Source: Phytomonospora endophytica (GTDB lineage: Bacteria; Actinomycetota; Actinomycetes; Mycobacteriales; Micromonosporaceae). Taken from it: DNA of 64,000 nt. Location: assembly GCF_014202425.1 (NCBI RefSeq), contig NZ_JACHGT010000023.1, positions 1-64,000 on the forward strand, in the 5' to 3' direction. Below are positions 17,149-62,494 of the stretch, piece by piece (position 1 is the first letter of the stretch; every line of letters begins with the position of its first letter). Both the position numbers and the translations under genes were made by a program. A model generated the notes under the pieces. The model was not told where the DNA came from. It saw only the letters and a program-made list of their open reading frames with translations, and searched no databases.

Positions 17149-20100
17149 CTATCCCCCGAACAGCGCGTTGAGGACGTCGAGGTCGCTGCCGCTGAGGTCG
17201 GTGGCGTCGGTGTCGGACAGCGTCCGCTGTCGGGTGCCGACGCTCGCGCAGTGGTCGGCGAGGTCGCCGAGCGCACGCGGGTAGAGCTCGGCGAAACTGT
17301 CGGCCTGCTCGGGGGTGAGTGTGTGCGTCTCGAAGGCGATGGACGCGGTGAGCCGGCCGTCTTCGAGGAAGACGTTGACGCGGACGCCTTCGAGCAGCCT
17401 GTTGTCGGGGTGGGAGGGGGTGGACTCGTGGGCGAAGGCGTGATCGCCGGTCTGGTCGCCGAGGTAGTTGAAGGTGACCGACGCGGGCAGTTTCGCGTAA
17501 CCGCCGGGGCGAAGCCCGTAGCCGATGCCGCGATGCGGGACGGCGCGGAGGGCTTCCTTCGCCGCGACCAGCGACTTCCCGGGATCGTCGCCGCGGTCGA
17601 GGACGACGGGGTACATGGCGGTGAACCAGCCGACGCTGCGGTCGGCCGCCGGGAGCGCGTCGTGCCCCGAGCGGCCGTGGCCCTCCAGCCGGACGGCGAT
17701 CCGCTCGCGGCCGGTGACCTCCCCGAGGCTCATGGCGAGTGCCGCGAGCAGGACGTCTTCGGTACTGGCGTGGTAGGCGGCGCCCGCGGCCAGGACGGCG
17801 GCGGTGCGGTCGTGGTCCAGTGTGGACAGTCGGATGTCGGAGACGGCCGGGCCGGGGTGCGTGGGCAGGGCGACGGCCCGGGCGCTGTCTTCGACGGCGT
17901 CCCAGTGGGCGCGTTCGGCGGGCACGAGCGTTTCGGCGAGGGTGTCGAGCGCGGTTGCCCAGTCCTTGGTGGACGCCGTCTTCGCGGGGAGGCCGGTCGC
18001 GCCGATTCCGGCGTGGACGTCTTCGACGAGGATCTGCCGGGAGACGGCGTCGACGACGAGGTGGTGCGCGGTCAGGAACAGCCGCGCGGTGCCCGGTGCG
18101 GTGACCAGCGCCGCCGACAGCAGTGGCCCGTCGGTGAGGTCGATCGCCGCGCGGGCACGCCCGGCCGCGGCCTCGATGGCGGCGGGCAGGAGCTCTGGGG
18201 TGCCAGCCTGTTCGTGGGTGAAGGCGTAGCGGGCTTCGCCGCTGGGGCGGATCAGCAGCCGCCGGTCGCGGACGACCGAGCGCAGGGTGTCGTGGTGCGC
18301 CCACACCCCGTCGAGCGCCGCGCGGACCTGCGCGGCGGTGGCGTCGCCGACGTCGATGAGCACGTCCTGGTCGAAGTGCCCGGGGACGGCGAGGTCCCAG
18401 TCGAAGAAGGCGTCGGTGATCGGTGTGCGGCCTTCGACCAGGCCGGTAACCTCACCCTGCTCGCCGGGGGCCGTGGCGCGATCGAGGCGGGCGGCGACGG
18501 CGCGCGCGGTCATACCGGCCATGACGGCGCCGACGGAGACCTCGTGTCCGGCCGCGCGGATGCGGGAGACGACGCGGATCGCCTTGATGGAGTCGCCGCC
18601 CAGTTCGAAGAAGGAGTCGGTCGCGCCGATCGCGTCGATGCCGAGGACGTCGGCGAAGGCGGCGCACACGACACGTTCGGCCTCGCTGGCCGCACTGACG
18701 CCTTCCCGCGCGTCGAGGGCGGGCGCGGGGAGGGCGGCACGGTCGAGTTTCCCGCTGCGGTTGAGCGGAACGGCCGCGATCACGGCGAGGTAGGCGGGGA
18801 TCATGTACCCGGGCAGGCGCTCGGCGAGGAAGGTCCGCAGCCCGTCGTGACCGGCGCCGGCGGTGGGCACGACGTAGGCGGCCAGAGCGGTCGAGCCGTC
18901 GGGCTCGCGGTGGTCGATCACGACGGCGTCGCGGACGGCCGGGTGCTCGCGGATCGCGGTCTCGACCTCGGCGAGTTCGATCCGGTGGCCGCGGATTTTG
19001 ACCTGTTGGTCGTCGATGCGTCCGAGGTATTCGATGGTGCCGTTGTTGAGGCGTCGGGCGCGGTCTCCGGTGCGGTAGAGGCGTCCTGGTCCGTGGGGGT
19101 TGGGGGTGAATTTCTCCGTGGTGAGTTCGGACAGTCCTATGTAGCCGGTGGAGAGGCCGTCGCCGGCGACGCTGAGTTCGCCTGCTTCGCCGATGCCGCA
19201 GAGGCGTTCGCCGTGGAGGATGTGCACTTGGGTGTTGGCGACCGGGACGCCGATGGGGATGCGTGCGGGGTCGACCAGGGCCTCACCGGTGTCGTGCCAG
19301 CCGGTGGCCAGGACGGTGGTTTCGGTGGGGCCGTAGGCGTTGACGTAGGGCACGTTCTCCCGTCGGGCCTTTTCCACGACGGCGAGGCTGGAGGCGCCTC
19401 CTCCGGTGGTGACGATCCGCAACGGCAGACCCTCACAGAGCAGGTAGTACTGGGGCGGCAACAGGCCGAGTGTCACACCTGAACGGTGGCATTCGCCGGC
19501 GAGGAGGGCGGTGTCGTGGACGGTGTCCTGGTCGACGATGACCAGCCCGGCACCGTTGAGCAGCGACAGCGCGATCTCCCACACCGAAGCATCAAAGGTC
19601 AGATTCGAAAACTGCAACACCCGGTCATCGGCCGTCACCGCGTACACCTCTCGCAGGTACGCGCGCAGGTTCACGACACCGCGATGCCGCAGCATCACGC
19701 CCTTGGGCACGCCCGTCGTCCCGGAGGTGTAGATGCAGTAGGCGAGGTCGTCGGACGACGGCGGCCGCAGCGCCAGCACCTCGGCGGCCTCGCGGGCTAC
19801 CGCCAGATCGACGACCGCGACATCGCCCGGCAGACCCGCCGCCATCGCGGCGGCACGCGAACCGTAGGTGAGAACCGCGCGCATCCCACTGTCGGCGACG
19901 ATCCGCGCGGCCCTCCCGGCGGGAGCCGTCACGTCGAGAGGGATGAAGTGGCAGCCGGCGAGCATCGCACCCAGGATCCCGACGATCACGTGCGTGCTGC
20001 GCTCACCGAGCACCCCTACCGCGGCACCGCGCGGCACTCCCCCGGTGATCAACTCCCCGGCGACCGCGCTCGCGGCCTCGGCCAACTCCGCGTAGGTCAT

Positions 20101-28831: not shown

Positions 28832-31800
28832 TCAGGTGAGGCCGAGCTCGGCGATGGACGCGTCGGCCGCGCCCGGGAAGGCCGTGAGGATCTCGACGAG
28901 GTGGTCGGTCATGAGTTCGGCCGCGTCGGCGTCGAGGGCGCCGGTGGAGTATTCGAGGCCGAGGACGTCGCCGCCGGGTGCGGCGGTGACGGTGAGTTCG
29001 AGATCGAACTTGGGTTCCAGGCTGATCGGCCCTATCACGGCGGTCCCGGCGTGCTCGCGTGGTGCGTCGCGGTAGGCGAGCATGACGCGAAGGAGGTCGC
29101 GTGGGGCGGGGTGCCCGTCGGCGGTCACGGCGGTGAGCAGCTCGTCGAAGGGCAGCACCTGGTGTTCGAAGGCGGCCAGGACGGTGTCGCGCACCTCGCG
29201 CAGGAGCTCGCGGACGGTCGCGGTGTCGGCCGGGCGCACCCGCAGGGCCACGGTGTTGACGCCCATGCCGACGACTCCGTCGAACTCGCCGACGGCGCGG
29301 TTGTCGACGGGCGTGCCGATGACGAGGTCCTCCAGCATCGTGTACTTCTGCAGCAGCACGGCCAACGCCGCGGTGTAGAGCGCGAAGGGCGTCGCGCTCT
29401 CGCCGGCGGCGAGGACGGCGAGCGCGTCGCGGACCTCGGCGGGCAGGTGGCGGACGGCGACCCCCAGACGGGTGGGGCCGCCGTCCGCGCTCATGGCGAG
29501 CACCACCGGTGCCGGCGGGTGGGTGAGTTCTTTGCGCCAATAGGCCAGGTCGGCGGTGGTGTCGTGGGCGGCCAGGGCGCGGGCGAACGCCGAGTACGGG
29601 GTGGCCTTCGGTAGGGGTGTGCCGTCGAGGTGGGCGGCGAGTTCGGTGTGGAAGATGTCGAGGGCGGCGCCGTCGAAGGCGATGTGGTGGGCGTCGACGA
29701 GCAGGACGTCGTGCTCGGGGCCGTGGGAGAGCGCGGCTCGGATCAGGGGCGGGCGGTCCAGCGGGAAGGGGCGGGCGAAGGCGCGCAGGAGCGCGGTGGG
29801 CTCGCCGGTGGCGTCGGTGGTCTCCAGTTCGCAGCGGGCGCCGGGGACCGGGGACTGTTCGAAGCGTCCGTCGCGGACCTCGTAGCGGCTGTGGAGGGCC
29901 TCGTGGCGGGCGGTGAAGGCGGTGAGGAATCGCGCGAGGGAGGCCTTGTCGGCGCGGCCTTTGAAGGCGACGGCGAAAGGCACGTTGTAGGCGAGGCTGC
30001 CGGGGTGGCGTTGCTGGGCGGTGTAGACGCGCACGGTCGCCGCCGACATCGGCGACGCGGTGGTGCCGCCGGTATCGGCGGGTGCGCCGGGTGGCGGCAG
30101 GGGCGCGCGGGCGGACAGGATCGCGTGCAGGGCCGCCGGGGTGGCCGCGGTGAGCACGTCGCGGATGGTGGCGTCGAGGCCCGCCCTGCGCAGTTCGCCG
30201 ACCAGCCGCATCGCCTTGAGTGAGTCGCCGCCGTGCTCGAAGAAGTTGTCCTCGGCGCCCATGGCCGGGCTGCCGCAGGCGTGGGCGAAGGCCGCGCGGA
30301 CGGCGTCGAGTCCTTCGCCTGCTTGCGGGGGTGGGGCGGGTTGTGTTCGGGGTGCGAGCCTTTCCAGGGCGCGGCGGTCCACTTTGCCCGACGGGGTCAG
30401 TGGCAGGTTGTCGAGCCGGCGCACCTCGGCGGGGACGGCGTAGGCGGGCAGCAGGGCGCCGAGGGCCGTGCGTGCCGCCGCCGGGTCGAGGTCGGCGGCG
30501 CCGACGACGAAGGCGACCAGTTCCCTGGCTCCGGCCGTGGAGTCGCGGGCGATCACGGCCGCCCGGTCGACGCCGGGCAGTGTCCGCAGCGCGGCGGACA
30601 CCTCTTCGGGTTCGACGCGGAATCCGCGAACCTTCACCTGGTCGTCGGCGCGGCCGAGGTAGCCGAGGGTGCCGTCGCCGTTCCAGGCGACCAGGTCACC
30701 GGTGCGGTAGGCGCGGCCGGTGCCGTGGAGGTCGACGAAGCGCTCGGCGGTCAGGTCGGGGTCGTTGACGTAGCCGAGGGCCAGGCCGTCGCCGGTGATC
30801 CACAGTTCGCCGGGCAGTCCGACACCGCGCGGCCCGTCGTCGCCGATGACGTGCACTCCGGCGCGCGGAAGCGGGCGGCCGATGGGGATGTCGGTGACGT
30901 CGCGTTCGATGCGGTGGGTGGTGGCGAAGGTGGTGGTCTCGGTGGGGCCGTACCCGTTGATCAGCACCGTTGCGTGGTTGGCGGCGTAGAAGCGCCGGAC
31001 GTGCTCGGGTGAGAGCCGCTCGCCGCCGATGAGCAGCTCCGCGAGGGGCTCGAACACCGTGGGGTCGGCCTCGACGTGGAGGTTGAACAGGGAACTGGTG
31101 AGCCACATGTGGGTGACGCCGTGGCGGCGGATCGCGGTGCCGAGCGCCGCGGTGTCCAGTTTGGTCTCCAGGTCGTCGAGGACGAGTGTGCCGCCGTTGA
31201 GCCAGGCGCCCCAGATCTCGAAGGTGGCGGCGTCGAAGTCGAGGGCACCGGTCTGGAGGATGACGCTGTCGCCGGACAGGCCGACGTAGTCGACGTCCTC
31301 GACCAGCCCTGTCACCGCCCGGTGCGCGACGGCGACGCCCTTGGGGCGACCGGTGGTGCCGGAGGTGTACATGACGTAGACGGGGTCCTCGGGGGAACCG
31401 GGCACGGGCTCGCAGACCCCCGGCGCGCCTTCGGGATCGACGACGAGCCCGGCGAACGGCTCGGTGAGCGCGGTGTCGGCGGCCGTCGCGACGACCGCGC
31501 TCGCGCCGCTGCTCGACACCAGGTAGGCCAGGCGCTCACGCGGAAGCGCGGGATCGAGGGGTACATAGACGCAGCCCGCCTTCACCACACCGAGCAGGGC
31601 CACCAGGGACGTGACGCTCTTGGTGGCGGGGACACCGACGCTCGCGCCGGGCGCGACTCCCGCGTCGCGGAGGGCGCCGACCACGCGGTCGGAGGCCTCG
31701 TCGAGCTGCGCGTAGGTCACGACCTGCTCGCCTTTGACGAGCGCGGGCCGATCGGCGCGGGCCGCGGCGACCTTCCGGAAGGACACGTCGACCCGAGTGC

Positions 31801-48084: not shown

Positions 48085-51000
48085 TCACGAGTCGACGACC
48101 TCCTGGATGCTGACCTTGCCCGCGAGGAAGTCGTCGAGCAGATCGGACAGCGAGGAGGCGGCCGGCGCGGGCCGCCGGGCGGCGACCGGCGCGGGCGGCG
48201 CGGTCTTGGCGGTGACGTGGTCGCTGAGCTGCACGACCGTCGGGTAGGCGAAGATGTCGGCGATGTTGACCACGCCGGGGAAGCGCCGGTCGAGTTCGAG
48301 TTGCAGGCGCGAGGCGAGCAGCGAGTTGCCGCCCGACTCGAAGAAGAGGTCGTGGACGTCGACCTCGCGGGTGTCGAGGGTGGTGCACCAGGCGACGGTC
48401 ACGGCCCGCTGGACGCCGGTGAGTTGCCGGGCGGGGAGTCCGCGGACGGTCAGGTCGTCGAAGTCGACGGTCTCGGTTGCCGGCGGGGCGGTGCCCGTGG
48501 CCGCCTCGGCGGCTCCGGGAAGGTCGATGAGTTCGCCGATCTCGGCGCGACGGCGGCGGACCTCCTCGCCGACGAAGGCACCGGCGAGGACGTGTGCGCC
48601 GGCGGCGGTGAGCGCCTCGTCGAGCAGGGCGCAGCCTTCGGTGTCGCCGACGAAGGCGGTGAGCTGCCCGGTGCCGGTGATGCCGTGCCGCCAGGCCATG
48701 CCGGAGTCGCGCCAGCCGGTCCAGCCCACGGCCAGCGCCGGGCGGCCTTCGGCGCGCATCCGGGCGGCGTAGGCGTCGAGGTAGGCGTTGGCGGCGGCGT
48801 AGTCGCTCTGCCCGGGTGCGCCCAGGACGGCCGTCATCGACGAGCACAGCGCGAAGAAGCGCAGCGGGTCGGCGCGGGTGGCGCGGTCGAGGAGCCGCAC
48901 ACCGGCGGTCTTGGGTGCCAGCACGCGGGCGAACTCCTCCCAGGTCTTGGTGATGGCGAAGCCGTCGCCGGGCAGACCGGCGGCGTGCACGACGCCGGTG
49001 ATGGGGCCGTGGGCCGCTCTGATCTCGTCGAGGCGGGCTTCGAGGTCCGGGCCGTCGGTGACGTCGGCGCGCCACAGGCCGACGCGGCCGCGCGCGTCGC
49101 CGAGCGCGTCGAGGACCGAGGCGATCTCGGCCGGGAGCGTGCTGGTGTCGCGGTCGTCGTGGCGGCGGTTGAGCAGCGCCACCCGCACGCCGGGGTTGGC
49201 GGCGGTGAGGTGGGCGGCCAAAGCCAGGCCCATGCCGCCGGTGCCGCCGGTGACCACGACGGTCCCGTCGAGGACGGCGAAGACCGAGGGGGCGGTGGTC
49301 GCCGGAAGCGCGGTGACCGCCGGCTGGAAGACGCGGCCGTCGCGGACGGCGACGACGGTGCGGCGGCGTGGACCGAGCAGCGCGGCGGCGACGTCGGCTG
49401 GCGCCGCGTCGTCGGTGTCGATGACCCGCAGGCGGATGTTGGCGTACTCGGCGTCGAGACAGGTCGCCGCGGCGGCGACCGCGCGGGCGGCGGGGTCGGG
49501 GACGTCCTCGCCGAGAACGCACTGCCCGTCGCGGGTGACGATCGCGTAGTCCACCGGTTCGGGTAGCGAGCGCAGGGCGAGCGCCCGGATGAGGTCGAAG
49601 ACGGGCCGCAGGGCCTCGTCGGGCAGTGCGGCCGGGTCCGCCGTCGGTTCGGCGGCGGCGACGATGTGGACGATCCGGCGTACGCCGGTGCGGGCGATCT
49701 GTTCGGCCCAGTTCTCGTCGGCGGCGGCCTCGGTGAGGCTGCGCACGGCCGCGCCCCGGGCGGCGAGGTGCTCGGCGAGGGGGTGTCGACCGTCGGTGAG
49801 GACGACGGTGGCGTCGGCATCGGACACGGGGGTGCCGGTGTCGGTCGCGGGCTTCCAGGTGATCTCGTGGAGGCGCGCGGGTGACCCGGCGAGGAAGGTG
49901 GCGGGGTCGGGGACGCGTCCGACCGAGTAGCCGGTGACGGTCCCGGTGACCGCGCCATCGACGTCGGTGAAGGTCGCGTCAAAGGTGCGCACACCCGACT
50001 GCTCGCGCCGGTCTGTGGGGACGATCAGGCAGTACCCGGCGTCGGGCATGCCCCGGCCGAAGACCGCGCGTTCGAAGGCCAGCGGGAGGAAGGGTTCCTT
50101 CTCGCGGAGCAGGCCGAGGTTGACGCCGGAGTCGAGGATCGGCGGGAAGAGGGTGTAGGCGCCTTTGGCGGCACTGGTGGCGGGGTCGGCCTCGTAGCGC
50201 AGCAGGGTCTCGCCGCCGTCGCCGAAGTACAGCTCGCGCGAGGAGCGCCACAGGCGGCCTTCGGTCTGCACCATCTCGCGGTGGTAGGACACCGCTTCGA
50301 GGACCGGTTCGCAGCGCGACAGGAGCGCGGCGAGGTCGATGTCGGCCGGTGCCGGGCCGCCGGGCGCGGGGGTGGCGTCGACGCGGCAGTGCTCGGTCCA
50401 TTCGGGGGCGTCGGCCAGGCGGCTGCGGAACTCCAGGGTCAGGCTCTCGCTCGTCCCGGTGGCGACGCACTGGAGGCGGCGCGTCTGTTCGCCGTCGGTG
50501 ACCAGCGGATCGCGGTAGTGCAGGTTCGTCAGGACCGGTGGGCGGCCCAGCACCCGGGCGGCGATGAACTGCGCCATCTCGACCAGGGCGGTGCCGACCA
50601 GGACGTGGCGGCCGTTGATGACGTGCTCGCCGAGCTCGAAGCAGGTGGGCGCCGACAGTTCCGATTCGAAGACGTCGAGGCCGCGTCCTTCGACGGTGTG
50701 GCGGTGGACGAGGGGGTGCAGTTTCGGCGCGGGTGGGGCCGCGACGGCGGTGGGGGCGGGGCGCCAGATGCGGCGGGGGCTGCCGTCGTAGGCGGGCAGC
50801 GGTACCCGGCGCAGGTCGCGGCCTTCGTACAGGCGGGCCCAGGGGACACGCGCGCCGGTGGTGTACAGCCTGGCCAGGTCGTGCACGGCGGTCCGGCGTT
50901 TCGTGCGGGGTGCGGCGTCGCGGCAGGTCTTTGCGGCTTCGTCCGACAGGCGTTGGCAGGTGTCGGCGTCGATGTAGCCCTCGCCGAGGCCGGTGGCGTC

Positions 51001-52653
51001 GGCGACGACGCGCACCGATCCGGTGTGGACGTCGTCGTGGGCCTTCCCGGTGAGGTGGGCGTCGATGCGTTCGGTGAGTTCGGTGCGGGTGGCGGCGGTG
51101 AAGCAGACGCGGTGTTCGTAGGTGCCGCGGCCGGTGCCGGCGGTGAAGCAGACGTCGGCGAGGTCGAGGTCGGGGTGGGCGGCCAGGTGCCGGTGCAGGT
51201 CACCGATGGACGCGTGGAGTTCGGTGGCCGTGCGGGCCGACAGGACCAGGATCTCCTCGCGCGGGTGGGTGTGGCGTTCTGCGGGGGCTGGGGCCTCTTC
51301 GACGAGGACGTGGCAGTTGGTGCCGCTGATGCCGAAGGAGCTGACCCCGGCGCGCAGCGGGAACGGGCCGGTCCAGTCCTGGAGACGGTCGCTCGGGTGG
51401 ACGGGGCTGTCGGCGAAGTCGATGCGCGGGTTGGGGGTGGAGAAGTGCAGCGAGGGCGGGATGCTGCGGTGTTTGAGCATCAGCAGGGTCTTGAGCAGTC
51501 CGGTGATCCCGGCGGCGGCGTCGAGGTGCCCGACGTTGGTCTTCACCGAGCCCAGGGCGCAGAACTGGCGCCGGTCGGTGTAGGCGGCGAAGGCCTCGGT
51601 GAGGCCGGTGATCTCCACCGGGTCGCCGAGGGCGGTGGCGGTGCCGTGCGCCTCGATGTAGCTCACCGACAGCGGGTCGACGTTCGCGTCGCGCCAGGCG
51701 TCGCGGATGACCTCGGCCTGGGCGGCGGCGTTGGGGGCGGTGATGCCGGCCGAGGCACCGTCCTGGTTCATCGCCCAGCCGCGGATCACGCCGTGCACGT
51801 GGTCGCCGTCGGCGATGGCCGCGGCGAGGGGCTTCAAGACCAGGGCGATGACGCCTTCTCCCCCGCCGGTGCCTTCGGCCTCACCGGAGAAGGCGCGGGT
51901 GCGCCCGGAGGGGGCTTCGATGCCGAAGCGGTGTTCGGCGTGCTCGGGCGGGATCAGCGTGACACGCACGCCGCCGGCCACGGCGGTGTCGACGACGCCG
52001 TCGCGCAGATCGCGGCAGGCCGTGATCACCGCCGCGAGCGAGGAGGAGCAGGCGGTGTCGACGAGCAGGGCGGGGCCGCGCAGGTCGAGGAAGTGGCTGA
52101 TGCGGGAGGCGGCCACGGCGTGGGCGGTGCCCGCGGCGGCCATACCGGCCGCGGCCGGGTCGGTGGGCCGGTGTCCGGCGAGGTACAGGCCCGGGGACGC
52201 GCCCGAGGCGAGGTACACGCCGGTCCGGGTGCCGCGCAGCGCGTCGCCGCCGTATCCGGCGTCTTCGATGGAGGTCATCGCCGCGGCGAGGAACAGGCGC
52301 TGGTGGGGGTCCATCAGGGCCGCTTCACCGGGGGCGATGGCGAAGCGTTCGGGGTCGAAGAGGTCGATGTGGTCGAGGTAGCCGTACGGGAGGGCCTGCC
52401 CGAGTGGTTCGCCCGCCGCTGCGGCCTTGAGTTCCCCCGCGTCGGCGCGGCGCCGCTCGGGGAACCCGCCGATGAGGTCGGCTCCGCCTTTCAGCGCGTT
52501 CCAGAACTCCTCGGGGCTCGCCGTGGGGCCTACGCGCGCCGACATCCCGATGACGGCCACGCCCTGCTCGCGCGGATCGGGTTCGGCCTCGGGGAGGTCG
52601 AAGCCGTCGCCGGCCATCTCGGCGAGCAGCCGGTCGAGGTTCACACCGTCCAC
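48085..52653 (-). CDS. PKS-1: AT-less module KS-DH-KR-ACP
   Basis: A 1522-residue polyketide synthase without acyltransferase. KS is at about 30-455 with DTACSSS near 201, HGTAT near 335 and NVGH near 373. A linker ends VPLPAYDGSPRRIW, then DH (about 645-930, HVINGRHVLVG in place of H-x3-G-x4-P, Asp in PPILDSG), KR (about 950-1380, VTGGTGGMG near 1137, SSMTAV and QSDYAAANAY), ACP near 1443 with the motif SGGNSLLA, and a C-terminal docking-like helix (LLDDFLAGKVSIQEVVDS). The GTG start at 52653 has GAGG overlapping the transferase stop, so the genes are coupled. Probably the first elongating module. Confidence 0.9.
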   Translation of the reverse strand: MDGVNLDRLLAEMAGDGFDLPEAEPDPREQGVAVIGMSARVGPTASPEEFWNALKGGADLIGGFPERRRADAGELKAAAAGEPLGQALPYGYLDHIDLFDPERFAIAPGEAALMDPHQRLFLAAAMTSIEDAGYGGDALRGTRTGVYLASGASPGLYLAGHRPTDPAAAGMAAAGTAHAVAASRISHFLDLRGPALLVDTACSSSLAAVITACRDLRDGVVDTAVAGGVRVTLIPPEHAEHRFGIEAPSGRTRAFSGEAEGTGGGEGVIALVLKPLAAAIADGDHVHGVIRGWAMNQDGASAGITAPNAAAQAEVIRDAWRDANVDPLSVSYIEAHGTATALGDPVEITGLTEAFAAYTDRRQFCALGSVKTNVGHLDAAAGITGLLKTLLMLKHRSIPPSLHFSTPNPRIDFADSPVHPSDRLQDWTGPFPLRAGVSSFGISGTNCHVLVEEAPAPAERHTHPREEILVLSARTATELHASIGDLHRHLAAHPDLDLADVCFTAGTGRGTYEHRVCFTAATRTELTERIDAHLTGKAHDDVHTGSVRVVADATGLGEGYIDADTCQRLSDEAAKTCRDAAPRTKRRTAVHDLARLYTTGARVPWARLYEGRDLRRVPLPAYDGSPRRIWRPAPTAVAAPPAPKLHPLVHRHTVEGRGLDVFESELSAPTCFELGEHVINGRHVLVGTALVEMAQFIAARVLGRPPVLTNLHYRDPLVTDGEQTRRLQCVATGTSESLTLEFRSRLADAPEWTEHCRVDATPAPGGPAPADIDLAALLSRCEPVLEAVSYHREMVQTEGRLWRSSRELYFGDGGETLLRYEADPATSAAKGAYTLFPPILDSGVNLGLLREKEPFLPLAFERAVFGRGMPDAGYCLIVPTDRREQSGVRTFDATFTDVDGAVTGTVTGYSVGRVPDPATFLAGSPARLHEITWKPATDTGTPVSDADATVVLTDGRHPLAEHLAARGAAVRSLTEAAADENWAEQIARTGVRRIVHIVAAAEPTADPAALPDEALRPVFDLIRALALRSLPEPVDYAIVTRDGQCVLGEDVPDPAARAVAAAATCLDAEYANIRLRVIDTDDAAPADVAAALLGPRRRTVVAVRDGRVFQPAVTALPATTAPSVFAVLDGTVVVTGGTGGMGLALAAHLTAANPGVRVALLNRRHDDRDTSTLPAEIASVLDALGDARGRVGLWRADVTDGPDLEARLDEIRAAHGPITGVVHAAGLPGDGFAITKTWEEFARVLAPKTAGVRLLDRATRADPLRFFALCSSMTAVLGAPGQSDYAAANAYLDAYAARMRAEGRPALAVGWTGWRDSGMAWRHGITGTGQLTAFVGDTEGCALLDEALTAAGAHVLAGAFVGEEVRRRRAEIGELIDLPGAAEAATGTAPPATETVDFDDLTVRGLPARQLTGVQRAVTVAWCTTLDTREVDVHDLFFESGGNSLLASRLQLELDRRFPGVVNIADIFAYPTVVQLSDHVTAKTAPPAPVAARRPAPAASSLSDLLDDFLAGKVSIQEVVDS

Positions 52654-52660
52654 CGGGGCC

Positions 52661-53914
52661 TCAGGGTCCGCTCGGGTCGAGCGCGGCGAAGACGTCGGCG
52701 GTGCGGGTGTCGCGCAGGAGTTCCTCGACGCGCACCCGGCGCTCCTCGGGCCGCACGCCCTTGGTCCGCAGGATGGTCAGCAGCAGGTCCATCGCCTCGC
52801 GCATCTCCTCGGTGGTGGCGGCGCGTTCTTCGCGGCCGAGGGCGGTGTTCATGCGCCGCAGCCGGTGGTAGGGCTTGACCACACCGGTGTCGTAGGCCTC
52901 GGCGTCGAAGTTGGTGTTGCGGGTGGCCGCCGCGACGCCCAGGGCGCGGGAGACGAAGGGGAAGGTGGTGCGCTCGATCATGCGGTGGAGATCGGTGCGG
53001 CCCTGCTCCCGGTCGTAGGGGAAGGTGCGGATCTCGGAGTAGGTGTGCCGGCTGAACTTGGCCAGGGTGTCGCCGGGGCCGAGCTCGACGGCGTAGTTGA
53101 AGCCGTTCATGCGCAGGTAGGTCAGGTCGTCGACCCAGCGCACGGGTTCGACGACCTGCCGGGCGAGCAGGTCGGGGACCTCGGCGGCCGAACCGTAGGG
53201 ACGGCCGGTCACGTTCGACAGGACCGGGATGCGCGGTTCGGCGATGGCGATGCCGGCCAGATCCTCCCGCAGCGCGGCGGCGACGGGTTCCATGAGCGCG
53301 CAGTGGAAGGGGACGCTGACGTTGAGGATCACCGCGCGCAGCCCGCGCTCCTCGGCGATCTCGTGCACGCGCAGGACGGCCGCGCGATGTCCGGCGACGA
53401 CGATCTGCGTGTTGGAGTTGAGGTTGGAGACGCTGACGACCTCGTGGGTCTCTTCGGCGACGGTGGCGCACAGGGCGGCGATCTCGGCGTGGTCGCGGGT
53501 GCGGATCGCCAGCATCAGGCCGCGTCCCTCGGGGACGGCCTGCTGCATGTACTGGCCCCGGCGGCGGGCCAGGCGCACGGCGTCGGGGAAGGCGATCGCA
53601 CCGGCGATGGTCAGCGCGGTGATCTCGCCGAGGCTGTGACCGGCGACGAGGTCGACGTCGAGATCCTCGCGTTCCATGAGGACGCGGAACTGGGCCATGC
53701 TGTGTGTGAGAATCGCCGGCTGGGTGTTCTCGGTGCGGGCGAGTTCGGCATTCGTCGACGCGAAACACAGTTGGCGCATATCGAGACCGAGAGCATCGCT
53801 GGCCTCTTGGAATGTGTCGTCGGCGACTTTTTCAGAAGCGCACAGGTCGCGTCCCATACCGACGTACTGCGCGCCCTGCCCCGAGCACAGCAAGGCTTTC
53901 TTGATCAATGACAT
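52661..53914 (-). CDS. Stand-alone malonyl transferase (trans-AT)
   Basis: A 417-residue discrete acyltransferase of the FabD/trans-AT type, expected to load malonyl units onto the ACPs of the two AT-less modules. It shows the entry motif CSGQGAQ near residue 10, nucleophile GHSLGE near 93, an Arg in the R-x-x-x-M region, and PFHC near 200 where the Phe-His pair indicates malonyl rather than methylmalonyl. A VELGPGDTL strand occurs near 285. The C-terminal ~110 residues extend beyond the usual catalytic core. ATG 53914 begins the conserved strand; ATG 53929 is an alternative. It is the first gene of the long minus-strand operon. Confidence 0.9.
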   Translation of the reverse strand: MSLIKKALLCSGQGAQYVGMGRDLCASEKVADDTFQEASDALGLDMRQLCFASTNAELARTENTQPAILTHSMAQFRVLMEREDLDVDLVAGHSLGEITALTIAGAIAFPDAVRLARRRGQYMQQAVPEGRGLMLAIRTRDHAEIAALCATVAEETHEVVSVSNLNSNTQIVVAGHRAAVLRVHEIAEERGLRAVILNVSVPFHCALMEPVAAALREDLAGIAIAEPRIPVLSNVTGRPYGSAAEVPDLLARQVVEPVRWVDDLTYLRMNGFNYAVELGPGDTLAKFSRHTYSEIRTFPYDREQGRTDLHRMIERTTFPFVSRALGVAAATRNTNFDAEAYDTGVVKPYHRLRRMNTALGREERAATTEEMREAMDLLLTILRTKGVRPEERRVRVEELLRDTRTADVFAALDPSGP

Positions 53915-54397
53915 GCGGGCTCGCGCCATCCCTTTCGGAGTCGAATGACCAGCGAGCAACACGACGGTTGCGACCTTTGGGCAAGGATCGCCAGGGCGCG
54001 TCCCACCAGTCGAGCGCGGCCTGCCTAGCTGGTGCGCTCATGATGTCCGATGCCGACAGTACGGGCATCGGTCGTTCAACCGATGTCCCGTGAACGCAAA
54101 TCGGGCGTCCGGCGCCAACCACGCGAAGTACGAATTAGCCGTCGGGATCGCTAAATACGCCACCCTACAGTGGACAGTGCCTTTGGTGAATAGAATGCTG
54201 TGGCTAAACTCGTCTCGCACCGACCTTTTCGCGACCCGCCACGAGCGGTTTTCGGCGAACCCGCGGTGAACAATTCGCCAACGGTCGCGAGGAATTGACC
54301 GAGGCACCCGATCGCGATCATCATGGCCACCTCGGCCTTTACCCGCCGCGCCCTCTCCCCCGGCCCGCCCCTTCTTTGACGACCTTCGGAGCACACG
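53915..54397. promoter_or_regulatory. Divergent control region of the biosynthetic cluster
   Basis: This 483-bp gene-free region separates the minus-strand operon from NRPS-C. It is less G/C-rich than its surroundings (AT-rich patches near 54120-54200) and must carry promoters in both directions. A TAGAAT hexamer near 54190 and several TTGAC-like hexamers are present, but no confident -35/-10 pair could be assigned. It contains a cluster of CCGATG-based inverted repeats, listed separately. No small coding gene was recognised. Confidence 0.6.
54047..54091. promoter_or_regulatory. Clustered CCGATG inverted repeats (candidate operator)
   Basis: Three related half-sites lie in 45 bp: CCGATGCC (54047-54054), GGCATCGG (54064-54071) and ACCGATG (54079-54085). 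The first two form an 8-bp inverted repeat. The second and third form ACGGGCATCGGT / ACCGATG-t-CCCGT, 12-bp arms with one bulged T and a six-base loop. They are placed about 135-175 bp from the operon's first gene, suitable for a regulator of one or both divergent promoters. Confidence 0.5.
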
Positions 54398-57300
54398 ATG
54401 TCGCAGCAGTTGGTCACCGCCCGCATCGACAACGTCGGCGACCTCTCGCCCCTGCAGGAGGGGATGCTGTTCCACGCACTGGCCGATCCCGGCGGAGGCG
54501 CCTACGTGGTGCAGCAGGTGTTCACCGCCGGCGACGCCGAGGGCCCTTTCGCGGTGGCCGATGTCGAGGCGGCCTTGGGCGGTCTGCCGGTGAAGCACGC
54601 GATCCTGCGCACGGCCTTCGTCGCCGAAGGACTGGACCGTCCGCGCCAGGTGGTGCTGCGCGAGCGCGGAATCGGCTTCGCGGTGGTGGATCTGCGCACC
54701 GCCGGGCCCGCCGCCGCGCCGGCCGTCGACAGGTTCTTGACCGAGGACGTCGCCCGCGGCTTCGACCTCGCGCGCGATCCGCTGCTGCGGGTCACCGCGA
54801 TCCGCACCGTCGACGACGAACGGGAACACGTGCGTCTGGTGTGGACCTACCACCACATCGTCCTCGACGGCTGGTCGCTGTCGACGTTGTTCGGTGACTT
54901 CCTGCGCTACCACCGCCTCGCCGCCGACGGCGCGAACGCCTCCACGATCATCGCCCTCGCCGAACGGGAGCGCGGCGAGGCACCCGACTACGCCTCCTAC
55001 GTCCGGCATCTGGCCGAACGGCCCACCCGCGCCTTCGAGAAGTACTGGCGGGAACTGCTCGCCGACTGCGGCGGCTCACCCGCGCCGCTGCCCGCGACCG
55101 CCGCGACGCTCCATGGCGGTGCCGGGAGGTTCACCGCGTCGAGCCGAAGCGGGCTGGCGCGGCGTTTGACCGAGGGGTTCTCCGCGCGGGGCGCGACCCT
55201 CGCCCACGTCGCCGAGGCGGCCTGGGGACTGGTGCTGTCACGGCAGACGGGAACACCCGATGTCGTGTTCGGCAAGGTCGTCTCCGGCCGCGACGTCGCC
55301 CTGCCCGGGGTGGAGCAGACCGTCGGGTTGTTCATCAACACCATCCCCGTGCGGGTCACCGTCGACGACACCGCGAGCGTGCACGGCCTCGTCGGCGAGG
55401 TCCGCGACCAGGCGATCGCCTCCGCCGAGCACGACCACGGGTCCCTCGCCCGGGTGCAGACGCTGGCCGGGGTGGAAGGCCTGGTGTCGAGCCTGTTCGC
55501 GTTCGAGAACTTCCAGGTCGACGAGGGCGTCATCGACGGCGGCGGCCTGTCCTTCGAGCGGGGCCGGGAGCAGACCGACTATCCGCTGACGATGACCGTG
55601 CAGCGCACCGGCGACGAGCTGGACCTCATCGTGCTGCACGACGAAGGCGTACTGGCGCGAGAGGACGCGCGGCGGTTGTCCGGGCGGTTGCTGGCGGTGC
55701 TGGAGGAGTTCGCCGCCGACGCCGAGCGGCCGCTGGTTGAGGTGTCGAGTCTTCTGCCGGGTGAGGCCGAGACGGTCGCGGGCGTCTGCGACGCGTCCTG
55801 TGTGGGCTATGCGCGTGATGGGTGGATCGGTGGCGTGTTCACCGGTGTCGTCGCCGAGCACGGTGAGCGTGTCGCGCTGGTCGCCGGTGATGAGCGTTTG
55901 ACCTACCGGGAGCTGGCCGCGCGGGCAGGGCGGGTCGCCGAAAGCCTTGCGGGTGCGGGGATCGGGACCGGCGACGTCGTCGGGGTCACCGGACAGGCCG
56001 GGGTCGAGTTGTTCGTCGGGCTGCTCGGGGTCACGCTGTCCGGGGCGGGGTATGTGCCGATCGACGTCGACACCCCGGTGTCGCGTGCCGCGGCCGTCGC
56101 CGCCGACGCCGGTGTCGCGGCGGTCGTTGCCGCCGGTGGACGCGCGGTCGCTTTCGCGCGCGAACTCGCCGCGGATGCGCCGGTGTTCGATGTCGCGGTG
56201 GCGGTCGGTGGCGGGTACCGGCGTGCCGCAGTCGCCGGGGCGCCTGGTGGTGGTGATGTCGCCTATGTGATGTTCACATCGGGTACGACCGGTCGCCCTA
56301 AAGGCAGTGTCATCCCGCAGCGGGCGGTGCTGCGACTGGTGTGCGGCAACCCCTCCCTGCCTTTGTCGTGCGATGACGTATTGATCCAGACCGGTTCGGT
56401 GGCCTTCGACGCCTCCACCTTCGAGATCTGGGGCATGTGGCTCAACGGCGGCACCCTCGTCATCCCCGACCGCGAAGACCTCCTCCACCCGCAGCGCTTC
56501 GCCGCAATGGTCGCCGAGCATCGCGCGACGACGATGTGGCTGACGGTCTCGCTGTTCAACCAGATCGCCGTCGGCGACCCGGCCGCGTTCACCGGTCTCG
56601 ACCACCTGCTCATCGGCGGTGAGGCCGTCAGCGCCGAGCACGTTCACCGCGTCTACGACGCCGTACCCTCGATCACGATCGTCAACGGCTACGGCCCCAC
56701 CGAGAACACCACCTTCACCACGACTCACCCGATCCCCAGGGCCCGCACCCGCACCGTCCCGATTGGTCGGGCGATCGGTGGGACGAGCGTGGTCGTCCTC
56801 GACGGTGACCGCGTCTGCGGGATCGGGGAGGTCGGGGAACTGTGCGCCGGTGGCGACGGCCTGTCTACGGGCTATCTCGGGCTGCCCGAACTCACCGCCC
56901 AACGCTTCACCGACACCCCCTACGGTCGTCTCTACCGCACCGGGGACCGCGTCCGGCGCCTGGCCGACGGCACCATCGAATACCTCGGCCGCATCGATGA
57001 CCAGCAGGTCAAGATCCGCGGCTACCGGATCGAACTCCCCGACATCGAAACCACACTGCGCCGACACCCCCACATCCGTGACGCGGTCGTCCTGCCCCAC
57101 CGGGAGGCAGGGCGCGTGTCGGCCCTGGCCGCCTACATCGTCGCCGAGGGCGCCCTGGTCCCGGCCGACGTGCGGGCGTTTTTGTCGGCGAGCCTGCCCT
57201 CCTACATGGTCCCCGCCCACGTCATCGCGATCCCGTCGATCCCGTTGACCCGCAACGGGAAGATCGACCGCGCCGCCCTCCCCGCGCCGGTGCCCGTCGC

Positions 57301-60300
57301 GGCCGGTGCGGGCCCCGCGCCCGCCGATGAGGTCGAGGCGGTCGTGTGTGCGGCCTTCGCCGAGGTGCTCGGCCTGCCGGTGGTCGGTGTCCTCGACTCC
57401 TTCTTCGAACTCGGCGGCGACTCCATCAAAGCCATCCGCGTCGTCTCCCGCGTCCGCCAGGCCGGATACGACGTCGCCGTCGGCGCCGTCATGGCGGGGA
57501 TGACACCGCGCGCGGTGGCCACACGCGTCGAACGGAAAGCCGTCAGCGCCTTCGAGCAGGGCGCCGTGACCGGAACGGTCGGCACGTGGCCGATCATCGA
57601 GGAGTTCTTCGCCTGGGACCTCACCGTTCCCGCCCACTTCAACCAAGACATCCTCATCGACGTCGGCTACAGCGCCCCCGAACACGTCCGCTCCGCCCTG
57701 GATGCCGTGTGGGCTCACCACGACGCCCTCCGCGCGATCGTGACCGACCGGACCCTTCACCTGCGCGACAACAAGGCCGCCTACGGCTTCGAGCACCACC
57801 AGGTGACCGACCCGGCCGAACTGGACCTGGCCGTCAACTCCGTCGCCGACCGTTTGCACGCTTCGATGGATCTGGCGGGCGGGCCGCTGTTCCAGGCGGG
57901 CCTCGTGGTCGGCCCGGGCGGTTCGCGGTTGTTCCTGGCCGCCCACCACCTCGTCGTCGACGCCGTCTCCTGGCAGATCATCACCGACGACGTCCTCACC
58001 GGCATCCGCGACGCCCAAGCGAACCGCCCCATCAGACTCGCGGAGAAGACCGCCTCCCTCCACGACTGGTCGGCGGCCCTGGACGAGCTGTCCGCGACGC
58101 TCGTCCCGGCCGAGCAGGCGTACTGGGACGCCGTCGACGCCGCGGCCGCCGACGCGCACCTGACCGGAGGCGGCGAAGGCGGCATGTCGGTGCGAAAGAT
58201 CGTGCTCGACCCCGCATCGACCGCTGATCTCGGGCGGGCCGCCACGGCCTATCACGCCTCGATGGAGGACGTCCTGCTCGCCGGTCTTGCGATCAGCGTC
58301 CAGGGGCCCGACCGGATCGCGATCCGCCTGGAACGCCACGGCCGGACCGGGCACGACGCGCTGCCGCCGGTGGATCGCACGGTCGGCTGGTTCACCACCA
58401 TGTTCCCCATCGTCCTGCACCACCACACCGACCCCGCCGAAGCCCTCATCACCACCAAGGAAACCCTGCGAACCGTCCCCCACGACGGCATCGGCTACGG
58501 CCTGCGCCCCGGCGGATACGCCAACATCACCGCCTCGGTGACCTTCAACTACCTCGCCGAGCAGGACACCCGCGAGACCGAAGGCTTCGGCGCCACGGTC
58601 TTCGCACGCACCGGGACGCCCTCCCACCCCGGCAACCGTCACCTCACCGGCCTCGCCGTCAACGCCATGGTCACAGACGGGCGGCTGGTCATCGTCTTGA
58701 GCGCCGAGGCCGCCACCCTCACCGAGGCCGAACTGTCCCGTCTCGCCGACCGCTACCGGCGCGGTCTCCAGACCTTGACCGGCGAAGCGGGCCGCCCGCG
58801 CCGCAAGACCCCCTCCGACCACCCGGTCGCCGTCGGCCTCTCCCGCGACGACCTGGCCCGCATCGAGGCCCGCCATCCGCGGCTCGACGAGATCACCGAT
58901 CTGACGCCTCTCCAGGAGGGGATGCTGTTCCACGGCCTGGAAGACGCCGCGAGCGGCGCCTACGTGGTCCAGCAGGTCTTCGTCGCCGCCGACGAGAACG
59001 GACCTTTCGATGTCGACGCCGTCGAGACGGCCCTGCACGCGTTGGGGCGGCAGCATCCGATGTTGCGGACGGCCTTCGTCGCCGAGGGCCTGGACCGTCC
59101 ACGCCAGGTCGTCCTTCGCGACCGGGAGATCGGCTTCACCACCGTCGACCTACGCCACGACTCCACCACCACCATCGACGACGTGCTCGCCGCAGAAGTC
59201 ACCCGCGGATTCGACCTCACCCACGACCCACTCCTGCGCGTCACCGCCATCCACTCGGCCGACAACGGTCGCGACGTCCTGCGCCTGGCATGGACCTACC
59301 ACCACATCATCCTCGACGGCTGGTCACTGTCCACACTCTTCGGCGACTTCCTGCGGCTCTACCGTGCTGCCACCCAAGGACGCGAAGACGCGGGAACCCC
59401 GGGCGCGCCCGCCTTCTCCGCCTACGTCGGCCATGTCGCCCGACGCGACACCGCCGCCTTCGACGCCTACTGGTCGCGCCTCCTCGACGGCTACGACACC
59501 GGCGCCGGGCTGGCCACGGCCGCACCCGTGGCCGAACGCGAAGGCCGGGGCGTGGGGCGCATAGCCGTGTCGAGCACCGGCGGACTCGCGCGCCGGCTGA
59601 CCGAGGCCTACGCGCCGCGCGGCGTCACCTTGAGCCACATCACCGAGGCCGCCTGGGGCCTGATCCTGGCGCGGGCATGCGGGACCGATGACGTCGTGTT
59701 CGGCAAGGTCGTCTCCGGCCGCGACGCCCCCATCCCCGGCATCGACAAGACCGTCGGGCTGTTCATCAACACCATCCCCGTCCGCGTCCACACCCCACCC
59801 GGCACCACCGTCACCGCACTCCTCGAAGCCGTCCGCGACCAGGCACTCGCCTCCGCCGAGCACGACCACGGATCCCTCGCCCGCATCCAGCGCGCGCTAC
59901 CCGTGGAAGGCCTGATCCAATCCCTCTTCGCCTTCGAGAACTACCACGTCGAAGCGGGCACCATCCATGGCGGCGGCCTCACCTTCGAACGCGGCCGGGA
60001 AGAAGAAACGAACTACCCCGTCAACCTCGTCGTCCAGCAAGACAGCGATGAGCTCGCCTTCAGCGTCCTCTACGACCGCCGCGCGCTCGCACGGTCCGAT
60101 GTGGACCGGGTGCTCGCCCGGATCCTGTACTTCCTCGATGCTGTGGCCGACGGCGCCGACAGGTCGCTGGGCCAGGTCGCGTCCCTACCGCCGACCGAGG
60201 AACAGACGGTGCGCGAAGGCTTCAACCAGACCGCGCTGGACTATCGGCCGGAGATGACCGCCGTCAGCCTTTTCCTGGACGGTGTGCGCGCACATCCTGA

Positions 60301-62494
60301 GCGGACGGCGCTGGTGTGGGGCGAGCGGTCGATGACCTACGCGGAGTTGGCCGGCGCGGCCGCCGCCGTCGCGCGGCGGCTGGTCGCCGACGGCACACCG
60401 CGAGGAGCGGCGGTCGGGATCATCGGTGAACGCAGTACGCATGTGATCGTCGGGATCCTGGGTGCGATGCTCGCCGGCTGCCACTTCGTTCCCCTCGACG
60501 TCGGCTCTCCCCCGGCTCGCATCGCTCGGATCGTCGCCGACAGTTCGATGGCGGCGCTGCTGACCTACGGGTCACGTGCCGCCGAGACGGCTTCGGCGCT
60601 GGGCGAGGCCCTGTCCGGGACGTCCGTGCACGACCTCGCCTCCTTCGGGGCGGCGGCCTGGGATCTCGGGGAGTTCGCCGGGCGGCTCCCCTCCCCCGAT
60701 GATCCGGCCTACTGCATCTACACCTCGGGTACGACCGGGACTCCCAAGGGCGTGCTGCTCGTTCACCGTGGAGTAGCCAACCTCCGGGCCCACCTCCGCG
60801 CGGCATACGGGGTGACGGCCGATGATCGGGTGTTGCAGTTTTCGAACCTGACCTTCGATGCTTCGGTGTGGGAGATCGCGCTGTCGCTGCTCAACGGCGC
60901 CGGGCTGGTCATCGTCGACCAGGACACCGTCCACGACACCACCCTCCTCGCCCGCGAATGCCACCGTGCAGGCGTGACACTCGGCCTGTTGCCGCCCCAG
61001 TACTACCTGCTCTGTGAAGGCCTGCCCCTGCGGATCGTCACCACCGGAGGAGGCGCCTCCAGCCTCGCCGTCGTCGACAAAGCCCGGCGGGAGAACGTGC
61101 CCTACGTCAACGCCTACGGCCCCACCGAAACCACCGTCCTGGCCACCGGCTGGCACGACACCGGTGAAGCCCTGGTCGACCCCGCACGCATCCCCATCGG
61201 GGTCCCGGTCGCCAACACCCAAGTGCACATCCTCCACGGCGAACGCCTCTGCGGCATCGGCGAAGCAGGCGAACTCAGCGTCGCCGGCGACGGCCTCTCC
61301 ACCGGCTACATAGGACTGTCCGAACTCACCACGGAGAAATTCACCCCCAACCCCCACGGACCAGGACGCCTCTACCACACCGGAGACCGCGCCCGACGCC
61401 TCAACAACGGCACCATCGAATACCTCGGACGCATCAACGACCAACAAGTCAAGATCCGCGGGTTTCGCATCGAGGTCGGCGATGTCGAGTCGGCGCTGCG
61501 CGAGCACCCGGATGTCAGTGACGCCGCCGTCGTCGCCCATCAGGAACGCGACGGCTCGACCGCTTTGGCGGCCTATGTGACACCGAACGGTCACTCCGAT
61601 GTGGACACCGCCGGGGTGCGCGTCTTTCTCACCGAGCGGCTGCCCGGGTACATGGTCCCCGCCTACCTCGCCGTGATCGCGGCGATCCCGCTGAACCGGT
61701 CGGGGAAAGTCGACGCCGCCGCCCTGCCTCCACCGGTTCCCGCCGGCACCGGGACACGCATCGCTGCCGCCGATGAGGTCGAGGCCGCGATCGCGGCGAT
61801 CTGGGCCGAAGTCCTCGGCCACACCCAGTTCGGGACGGGTGAGAACTTCTTCGAACTGGGCGGGACCTCGCTGACGATCGTGCAGGTCCACGGACGCCTC
61901 GGGAAGGCCTATCCGGGAATCCTCACCGTCGGCGACCTGTTCGCGATGCCGACGGTGCGCGCCACCGCCGCCGGGATCCGCGCCCGCCTCACCGAGCGGA
62001 TCGCGCTGACGCGCGTGGAGCTGCGCCGCCCGGCCGATGCCCGCCCGGGACCGTCCACGGTGGCCTTGGCACGACAGTGGCGCGATGATCAGTCGCCCGA
62101 GGCCGTTTACGCCTTCACGCTCGCCCTGGCCTCCATGTCGAAGGCGCCACCGACGACGCTGCTCGTCTGGCACGAAGGCGGCCTCACCGCCGTCGACGTG
62201 CCCGACTCCGGCGAGCACGGTGCGCGGCTCGCCCAGCTCCGCCGGGACCTGTCGGCGTCGGTTCCGCTGGCGGCCGAACGGCGGATGCGGGTGACCGGGG
62301 CCGGTGTCCTGGCTTCACTGAAGCTTCCGGGCGCCGCCGCGCGGCTGCCTCATCCGGTCCTGCGCGATGTGGACGTGACCGTGGAGCTCTCCTCCACCGA
62401 GGCCCGCCGGGTCACGGCGGGCCGCCACCTCGATGCGACGGCGGCGGCGCTGCTCGCGCGTTTCACCGTGCTCTTCGGGCAGTTGACGGCCTGA
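54398..62494 (+). CDS. NRPS-C: C-A-PCP-E-C-A-PCP-tail
   Basis: A 2698-residue two-module synthetase transcribed opposite to the rest. Domains: C 10-450 (LSPLQEGMLFH near 20, HHIVLDG near 153); A 460-960; PCP near 1007 (LGGDSIKA); E 1040-1480 (HHLVVDAVSW near 1185, VGWFTTMFP near 1330); C 1500-1940 (HHIILDG near 1636); A 1950-2440; PCP near 2488 (LGGTSLTI); tail 2530-2698. A pockets read DAFWLGGTF (Val code) and DAWLTGAVL (Leu-like). The first C follows an E domain in the proposed order, so it should be of the D-accepting type. The tail has no GxSxG nucleophile and resembles half of a condensation domain, so release is unexplained. GGAG precedes ATG 54398. Large parts are nearly identical to NRPS-B modules. 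Confidence 0.93.
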   Translation: MSQQLVTARIDNVGDLSPLQEGMLFHALADPGGGAYVVQQVFTAGDAEGPFAVADVEAALGGLPVKHAILRTAFVAEGLDRPRQVVLRERGIGFAVVDLRTAGPAAAPAVDRFLTEDVARGFDLARDPLLRVTAIRTVDDEREHVRLVWTYHHIVLDGWSLSTLFGDFLRYHRLAADGANASTIIALAERERGEAPDYASYVRHLAERPTRAFEKYWRELLADCGGSPAPLPATAATLHGGAGRFTASSRSGLARRLTEGFSARGATLAHVAEAAWGLVLSRQTGTPDVVFGKVVSGRDVALPGVEQTVGLFINTIPVRVTVDDTASVHGLVGEVRDQAIASAEHDHGSLARVQTLAGVEGLVSSLFAFENFQVDEGVIDGGGLSFERGREQTDYPLTMTVQRTGDELDLIVLHDEGVLAREDARRLSGRLLAVLEEFAADAERPLVEVSSLLPGEAETVAGVCDASCVGYARDGWIGGVFTGVVAEHGERVALVAGDERLTYRELAARAGRVAESLAGAGIGTGDVVGVTGQAGVELFVGLLGVTLSGAGYVPIDVDTPVSRAAAVAADAGVAAVVAAGGRAVAFARELAADAPVFDVAVAVGGGYRRAAVAGAPGGGDVAYVMFTSGTTGRPKGSVIPQRAVLRLVCGNPSLPLSCDDVLIQTGSVAFDASTFEIWGMWLNGGTLVIPDREDLLHPQRFAAMVAEHRATTMWLTVSLFNQIAVGDPAAFTGLDHLLIGGEAVSAEHVHRVYDAVPSITIVNGYGPTENTTFTTTHPIPRARTRTVPIGRAIGGTSVVVLDGDRVCGIGEVGELCAGGDGLSTGYLGLPELTAQRFTDTPYGRLYRTGDRVRRLADGTIEYLGRIDDQQVKIRGYRIELPDIETTLRRHPHIRDAVVLPHREAGRVSALAAYIVAEGALVPADVRAFLSASLPSYMVPAHVIAIPSIPLTRNGKIDRAALPAPVPVAAGAGPAPADEVEAVVCAAFAEVLGLPVVGVLDSFFELGGDSIKAIRVVSRVRQAGYDVAVGAVMAGMTPRAVATRVERKAVSAFEQGAVTGTVGTWPIIEEFFAWDLTVPAHFNQDILIDVGYSAPEHVRSALDAVWAHHDALRAIVTDRTLHLRDNKAAYGFEHHQVTDPAELDLAVNSVADRLHASMDLAGGPLFQAGLVVGPGGSRLFLAAHHLVVDAVSWQIITDDVLTGIRDAQANRPIRLAEKTASLHDWSAALDELSATLVPAEQAYWDAVDAAAADAHLTGGGEGGMSVRKIVLDPASTADLGRAATAYHASMEDVLLAGLAISVQGPDRIAIRLERHGRTGHDALPPVDRTVGWFTTMFPIVLHHHTDPAEALITTKETLRTVPHDGIGYGLRPGGYANITASVTFNYLAEQDTRETEGFGATVFARTGTPSHPGNRHLTGLAVNAMVTDGRLVIVLSAEAATLTEAELSRLADRYRRGLQTLTGEAGRPRRKTPSDHPVAVGLSRDDLARIEARHPRLDEITDLTPLQEGMLFHGLEDAASGAYVVQQVFVAADENGPFDVDAVETALHALGRQHPMLRTAFVAEGLDRPRQVVLRDREIGFTTVDLRHDSTTTIDDVLAAEVTRGFDLTHDPLLRVTAIHSADNGRDVLRLAWTYHHIILDGWSLSTLFGDFLRLYRAATQGREDAGTPGAPAFSAYVGHVARRDTAAFDAYWSRLLDGYDTGAGLATAAPVAEREGRGVGRIAVSSTGGLARRLTEAYAPRGVTLSHITEAAWGLILARACGTDDVVFGKVVSGRDAPIPGIDKTVGLFINTIPVRVHTPPGTTVTALLEAVRDQALASAEHDHGSLARIQRALPVEGLIQSLFAFENYHVEAGTIHGGGLTFERGREEETNYPVNLVVQQDSDELAFSVLYDRRALARSDVDRVLARILYFLDAVADGADRSLGQVASLPPTEEQTVREGFNQTALDYRPEMTAVSLFLDGVRAHPERTALVWGERSMTYAELAGAAAAVARRLVADGTPRGAAVGIIGERSTHVIVGILGAMLAGCHFVPLDVGSPPARIARIVADSSMAALLTYGSRAAETASALGEALSGTSVHDLASFGAAAWDLGEFAGRLPSPDDPAYCIYTSGTTGTPKGVLLVHRGVANLRAHLRAAYGVTADDRVLQFSNLTFDASVWEIALSLLNGAGLVIVDQDTVHDTTLLARECHRAGVTLGLLPPQYYLLCEGLPLRIVTTGGGASSLAVVDKARRENVPYVNAYGPTETTVLATGWHDTGEALVDPARIPIGVPVANTQVHILHGERLCGIGEAGELSVAGDGLSTGYIGLSELTTEKFTPNPHGPGRLYHTGDRARRLNNGTIEYLGRINDQQVKIRGFRIEVGDVESALREHPDVSDAAVVAHQERDGSTALAAYVTPNGHSDVDTAGVRVFLTERLPGYMVPAYLAVIAAIPLNRSGKVDAAALPPPVPAGTGTRIAAADEVEAAIAAIWAEVLGHTQFGTGENFFELGGTSLTIVQVHGRLGKAYPGILTVGDLFAMPTVRATAAGIRARLTERIALTRVELRRPADARPGPSTVALARQWRDDQSPEAVYAFTLALASMSKAPPTTLLVWHEGGLTAVDVPDSGEHGARLAQLRRDLSASVPLAAERRMRVTGAGVLASLKLPGAAARLPHPVLRDVDVTVELSSTEARRVTAGRHLDATAAALLARFTVLFGQLTA

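Follow-up and report, generated by a model that had tools for sequence, protein, structure and literature searches.

The locus at positions 17149-62494 is most likely a variant of the epifadin kind of assembly line, in a phylum absent from the list of relatives in the epifadin paper, which names Bacillota only (PMC11310079). A probability of roughly 65% is assigned to the reading, drawn from the sequence, that it is an actinobacterial form of this kind in which an NRPS heptapeptide would be handed to a short, AT-less and possibly iterative PKS. Epifadin itself combines an N-terminal NRPS peptide, a polyene made by an iterative AT-less PKS that relies on a single discrete AT, and a tetramic acid; epifadin-type peptide-polyenes are broad-spectrum antimicrobials (PMC11310079). 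Together with three relatives in the same family, the locus places the epifadin assembly logic in actinobacteria, with different peptides, while its ending differs from that of epifadin and from that of these relatives.

Gene content and NRPS proteins

The window, a stretch of 64,000 nucleotides, is the first part of a 114,836-bp contig in an 8.35-Mb genome, and GC content is 69.5% over the 100 kb analysed. The locus comprises 13 intact genes in the window and, given the length of the contig, is not cut by a contig end. The initial annotation had described a complete hybrid NRPS/AT-less PKS locus in which one KS and one AT are degenerate, and this description holds, although its count of 14 adjacent genes does not. 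All of the components that it listed are present: three NRPSs, one discrete malonyltransferase, two AT-less KS-DH-KR-ACP proteins (PKSa and PKSb), an altered KS (KS-like), an altered AT (AT-like), a thioesterase (TE), a three-gene exporter, and a CPBP-type protein, with domain content that agrees between Pfam, NCBIfam, and local HMMs. In the direction of transcription, the minus-strand genes are the discrete AT, PKSa, PKSb, AT-like, KS-like, the TE (39430..40179), a DrrA-like ABC transporter ATPase (38499..39440), two ABC-2 permeases (37364..38494 and 36249..37367), an Rce1-like/CPBP membrane protein of 278 aa (35398..36234; PF02517, 1.9e-10), NRPS2 (28832..35401), and NRPS1 (17149..28809). 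Since most of these neighbors overlap or nearly touch, they look like one coupled unit. NRPS3 (54398..62494) is divergent and stands alone on the plus strand. Export would be carried out by the products of the ABC genes. The locus has no MbtH gene of its own; the two MbtH genes of the genome are found on other contigs (C17:213873 and C15:159134).

The architecture is A-T-E-C-A-T-E-C-A-T-E for NRPS1 (3886 aa), which ends in a full E domain with a C-terminal COM-like tail, and (partial C)-A-T-C-A-T-C for NRPS2 (2189 aa), which ends in a full C domain, while NRPS3 (2698 aa) is organized as C-A-T-E-C-A-T-tail. The 2511-aa ORF of NRPS2, with a GTG start, begins out of frame with the coding sequence, and the gene actually starts near 35401, where it overlaps the CPBP gene by 4 bases. 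In total there are seven A, four E, and six catalytic C domains, in line with the seven A and four E domains first reported, and HHxxxDG is kept in all six full C domains and HHxxxD in all four E domains. The NRPS ends had also been described as half-condensation domains. This stands for the head of NRPS2 (34937..35401, minus strand, about 155 aa), a putative C domain remnant without HHxxxDG that has weak HMM support, with 0 of 188 shuffles scoring as well. It fails for the full E and C domains that end NRPS1 and NRPS2, and as a C-like remnant the tail of NRPS3 (61985..62491, plus strand) scores more weakly, with 5 of 234 shuffles as good. Fold prediction of the NRPS2 head and the NRPS3 tail was uninformative (pLDDT 33-35).

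The pocket codes are DASSFVLVF (no residue match) and DAFWLGGTF (Val-like) in NRPS2; DAKDLGVVD (Glu/Gln-like), DAFWFGGTF (Val-like), and DAWLTGAVL (hydrophobic, unsure) in NRPS1; and DAFWLGGTF (Val-like) and DAWLTGAVL in NRPS3. DAWLTGAVL is an ungapped reading, as the aligned code of the repeated DAW domain held a misplaced gap that was corrected by hand. These codes suggest a first residue without prediction followed by Val, D-Glu/Gln, D-Val, a D-hydrophobic residue, D-Val, and a hydrophobic residue. Modules 2-3 of NRPS1 and modules 1-2 of NRPS3, judged by a DNA identity of 81-82% over approximately 6 kb, are a recent duplication inside the cluster.

The PKS proteins and their relatives

PKSa (48085..52644, minus strand) and PKSb (43178..48028, minus strand) are both KS-DH-KR-ACP proteins without an AT. 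Their KS triads are intact (DTACSSS, HGT, and NxGH), the KR motifs TGGxGxxG and YxxxN and the ACP Ser are present, and the DH domains keep the His with changes elsewhere in the motif. The discrete malonyltransferase (52661..53962, minus strand; the true start may be about 53914) features a C-terminal tail of about 115 aa (52664..53017) that is common to EfiB, Paenibacillus, and the same-family relatives. The architecture, a discrete AT with AT-less modules, fits extender loading in trans, as in a canonical trans-AT PKS.

PKSb is the counterpart of EfiD, with a single alignment across 1608 aa (755 bits, compared with 574 bits for PKSa against EfiD), and the discrete AT is the counterpart of EfiB, aligned across 411 aa with the tail included; the two tails match at z = 20. 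A search of 72,556 plasmids with the AT tail (E<0.1) returned the two epifadin plasmids only, and an epifadin plasmid gave the best coverage among the plasmid matches to PKSa, the EfiC counterpart by position. The gene order AT-PKSa-PKSb-terminal KS is the EfiB-C-D-E order of epifadin. Docking-type helices are distributed over PKSa, PKSb (at both ends), and KS-like as they are over EfiC, EfiD, and EfiE; the start helices of PKSa and EfiC match at z = 5.5, while the match of KS-like to the start of EfiE (z = 3.8) is weak, since it is no better than the best shuffle. The locus had been thought to match no cluster that could be named. A described cluster with an identical gene set was indeed not found in the open-access literature and the genomes and plasmids searched, but PKSa, PKSb, and the AT are homologous to EfiC, EfiD, and EfiB in the same order.

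The KS tree points in the same direction. When compared with 31 other sampled KSs of canonical trans-AT and cis-AT type, PKSa, PKSb, EfiC/D/E, ten Paenibacillus KSs, and three KSs located beside iturin-type ATs (including bacillomycin BamA) form one clade with a support of 100/100, and PKSa and PKSb therefore lie outside the canonical trans-AT KS clades. The split persists after the same-family relatives and KS-like are added (95/76). PKSb is grouped with the PKSb of a same-family genome (96/75). PKSa falls in a subclade (97/99) that also contains EfiC, the Paenibacillus KSs, and the iturin KSs, its nearest KSs within the clade being those of Paenibacillus and not EfiC. KS-like forms a very long end branch (3.3) and is too diverged to place further. 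The locus thus combines a discrete AT with AT-less KS-DH-KR-ACP proteins whose KSs belong to the epifadin lineage. That the iturin-type AT-less KS and discrete AT share this lineage suggests one separate origin of in-trans loading.

A direct search with the AT tail identified epifadin-like clusters in three same-family genomes (G284, G250, and G232), which are closely similar to one another and have the gene order NRPS(C-A-T-tail)-AT-PKSa-like-PKSb-like-EfiE-like. No description of these actinobacterial epifadin relatives was found in the open-access literature. Seven further same-family genomes contain weaker AT-tail matches (30-35% identity) beside PKS genes. Across 84,980 species genomes, an AT-tail profile led to two Paenibacillus genomes with a large NRPS/AT-less PKS cluster. 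In that of Paenibacillus lutrae (contig 187-273 kb), several NRPSs that immediately precede PKS proteins end in a carrier and a partial C-like tail, and this combination is possibly an NRPS-to-PKS junction element. Among the actinobacteria sampled, this system is rare, and no AT-like or KS-like orthologue occurs in the genomes sampled: the full AT gave no match reaching the tail in 396 phylum genomes except the locus itself, AT-like retrieved ordinary AT domains only in 355 family and 399 order genomes, and KS-like had no near relative at E<=1e-75 in 395 class genomes. A KS-like scan of the 84,980 species genomes also returned nothing; its search patterns were poorly chosen, so this result is weak evidence of absence.

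Direction of the assembly line and predicted product

The product was initially predicted to be an acylated heptapeptide, which is probably the wrong way round because the order evidence favors a peptide made first and a polyketide second. NRPS2 ends in a C domain and NRPS1 starts with an A domain, so NRPS2 would precede NRPS1. The first C domain of NRPS3 shares 54-59% identity with the three C domains located after an E domain and 31-33% with the other two; given this resemblance, and since NRPS1 ends in an E domain and a COM-like tail, NRPS1 would in turn precede NRPS3. The first module of NRPS2, which has no catalytic C lobe, fits a chain start, and the starter C domain that marks the first module of an acyl-first lipopeptide NRPS is not found there. 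At the other end, the last carrier of NRPS3 (GGTSLTIVQVHGRLGKAYPGILTVGDLFAMPTV) is of PKS type (GGTSL) and resembles the carriers that precede a tail and a PKS in the Paenibacillus, epifadin, and same-family clusters. The tail behind it is like the tails at the relatives' NRPS-to-PKS junctions in place and size, while homology is putative: its similarity to these tails does not rise above noise (5 of 234 shuffles score as well), and pairwise alignment shows no significant similarity to the EfiA tail. As in epifadin and its relatives, the NRPS with the carrier-tail end adjoins the AT. A docking of the NRPS3 tail to the NRPS2 head in an iterating NRPS was also considered and rejected, as no evidence for it was found.

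The minus-strand gene order, which reads the PKS genes before NRPS2 and NRPS1, runs contrary to the peptide-first direction and would suit an acyl-first lipopeptide. There, PKSa and PKSb would produce a short unsaturated acyl group that is joined to the first residue on NRPS2, with KS-like taking over amide formation from the absent C lobe. In favor of this, KS-like begins with a docking-type N-terminus and lacks a carrier, and amide-forming ketosynthases are known (CalA3 and BomK; PMC10006239); however, KS-like has lost both of the His residues that CalA3 needs for amidation (PMC10006239). The lack of a catalytic C lobe in module 1 of NRPS2, the grouping of the PKSa KS with KSs of NRPS-fed PKSs, and the likeness of the last carrier and tail of NRPS3 to NRPS-to-PKS junctions also argue against this arrangement, and epifadin, which is the nearest relative that has been characterised, starts with the peptide (PMC11310079). 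An acyl-first assembly line is considered distinctly unlikely, and the locus makes the choice between the two directions directly testable.

In the peptide-first direction, the A-T of NRPS2 would start the chain, the last C domain of NRPS2 would feed NRPS1, the terminal E domain of NRPS1 would feed the first C domain of NRPS3 by a COM-type contact, and the last carrier of NRPS3 would pass the peptide to PKSa and then to PKSb, for an inferred protein order of NRPS2, NRPS1, NRPS3, PKSa, and PKSb. The discrete AT would load both PKS proteins in trans, and every PKS round (KS-KR-DH) would add one conjugated double bond. The predicted product is aa1-Val-D-Glu/Gln-D-Val-D-aa5-D-Val-aa7 with at least a diene, as expected from two PKS proteins. 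By analogy with epifadin, whose three PKS modules make nine rounds (PMC11310079), a polyene may be formed here if the PKS iterates in the same way.

Chain ending and comparison with known systems

The EfiE-type KS-T-C-A-T-CT protein is absent from the locus, which thus counts as a variant of the epifadin assembly line and not as a member of the tetramate class. Instead, the carrier-less KS-like protein (40176..42134, minus strand) takes the position of EfiE's KS, and the pair of KS-like and AT-like (42124..43140, minus strand), along with the TE (GHSMG / D / DH; predicted editing or release), stands where the carrier-C-A-T-CT part of EfiE would be. KS-like aligns with EfiE from residue 1 and keeps its Cys (DASCPSS), while AEGYTH replaces EAHGTG and NLGYLH replaces NxGH, so that Glu and Tyr take the place of the two His residues. 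AT-like, the N-terminal 112 aa of which match the AT lineage, has lost its Ser and has GKGVG where homologues have GHSLGE. Codon-position GC and place in the operon make both look like real genes. The C-terminus of AT-like was also considered as a copy of the AT tail, for which the similarity was not significant.

In the proposed pathway, KS-like would take the docking position behind PKSb that the KS of EfiE has in epifadin and would act with the TE at the final step, where its role would most likely be transfer or release without elongation. A possible parallel is CalA3 of calcimycin, a terminal carrier-less KS that frees the chain through amidation or hydrolysis; when its Cys or one of its two His residues was mutated, amidation was lost and hydrolysis increased (PMC10006239). 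Like KS-like, CalA3 is a terminal KS without a carrier and with inactive neighbors; unlike KS-like, it keeps Cys-His-His and is a single five-domain protein, and the likeness is one of possible function only. By this analogy, KS-like could pass on or release the chain together with the TE.

It is tentatively possible that KS-like and AT-like represent a new kind of chain-terminating enzyme, a carrier-less KS descendant with a Cys-Glu-Tyr site that would release or transfer the peptidyl-polyene and replace the tetramate-forming module. If the ending is enzymatic, it would be a new release mechanism, possibly with a product that lacks tetramic acid. A more doubtful explanation is that both proteins are decaying remnants of an EfiE-type module and that the TE alone releases a free acid or a ring, as the loss of catalytic residues, the very long KS-like branch, and the EfiE-like module present in relatives may indicate; yet both are full-length, coding-biased, and translationally coupled ORFs inside the operon, and the KS-like Cys is retained. 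It seems unlikely that KS-like, instead of releasing the chain, sets chain length or acts as a gatekeeper for PKSa and PKSb, as a partner of the chain-length factor or non-elongating KS0 type. The non-condensing KS0s of trans-AT systems have the Cys and lack the His pair, as does the KS fold of KS-like, which is also discrete and in the same operon. Chain-length factors, however, normally lack the Cys, and the N-terminal helices of KS-like place it, weakly, behind PKSb.

The epifadin cluster efiA-G,O,P,T (Staphylococcus epidermidis pIVK83; PMC11310079) has in common with the locus a discrete AT with a tail, two KS-DH-KR-ACP proteins in order with a terminal KS behind them, an NRPS ending in T plus a tail, a TE, ABC export, and D-residues in the peptide. 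Only epifadin has a single NRPS (four A domains found), the EfiE KS-T-C-A-T-CT module for tetramic acid, an oxidoreductase, and a PPTase, whereas the locus has three NRPSs with seven A domains, KS-like and AT-like in place of the EfiE module, a different exporter, and a CPBP protein. The three same-family clusters share with the locus the NRPS C-A-T-tail, AT, PKSa-like, and PKSb-like genes in one order, but they retain the EfiE-like KS-T-C-A-T-CT module and contain cis-AT-type KS, C-A-T, and KS-T-C proteins and acyl-CoA dehydrogenase/HAD-type genes as extras. The Paenibacillus lutrae cluster (NZ_RHLK01000002.1) has the same KS lineage, an AT tail with 42% identity, NRPSs that end in T plus a tail ahead of PKS proteins, and a partial-C NRPS head, although its modular line is much larger and includes two discrete ATs. 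Bacillomycin D, of the iturin type, likewise uses a discrete AT and an AT-less KS of the same lineage as those of the locus (BamD and BamA); it differs as an acyl-first lipopeptide with no KS-DH-KR protein pair and a shortened AT tail. Ultimately, while epifadin and the same-family relatives finish with KS-T-C-A-T-CT, the locus finishes with a lone KS without the His pair, followed by a TE.
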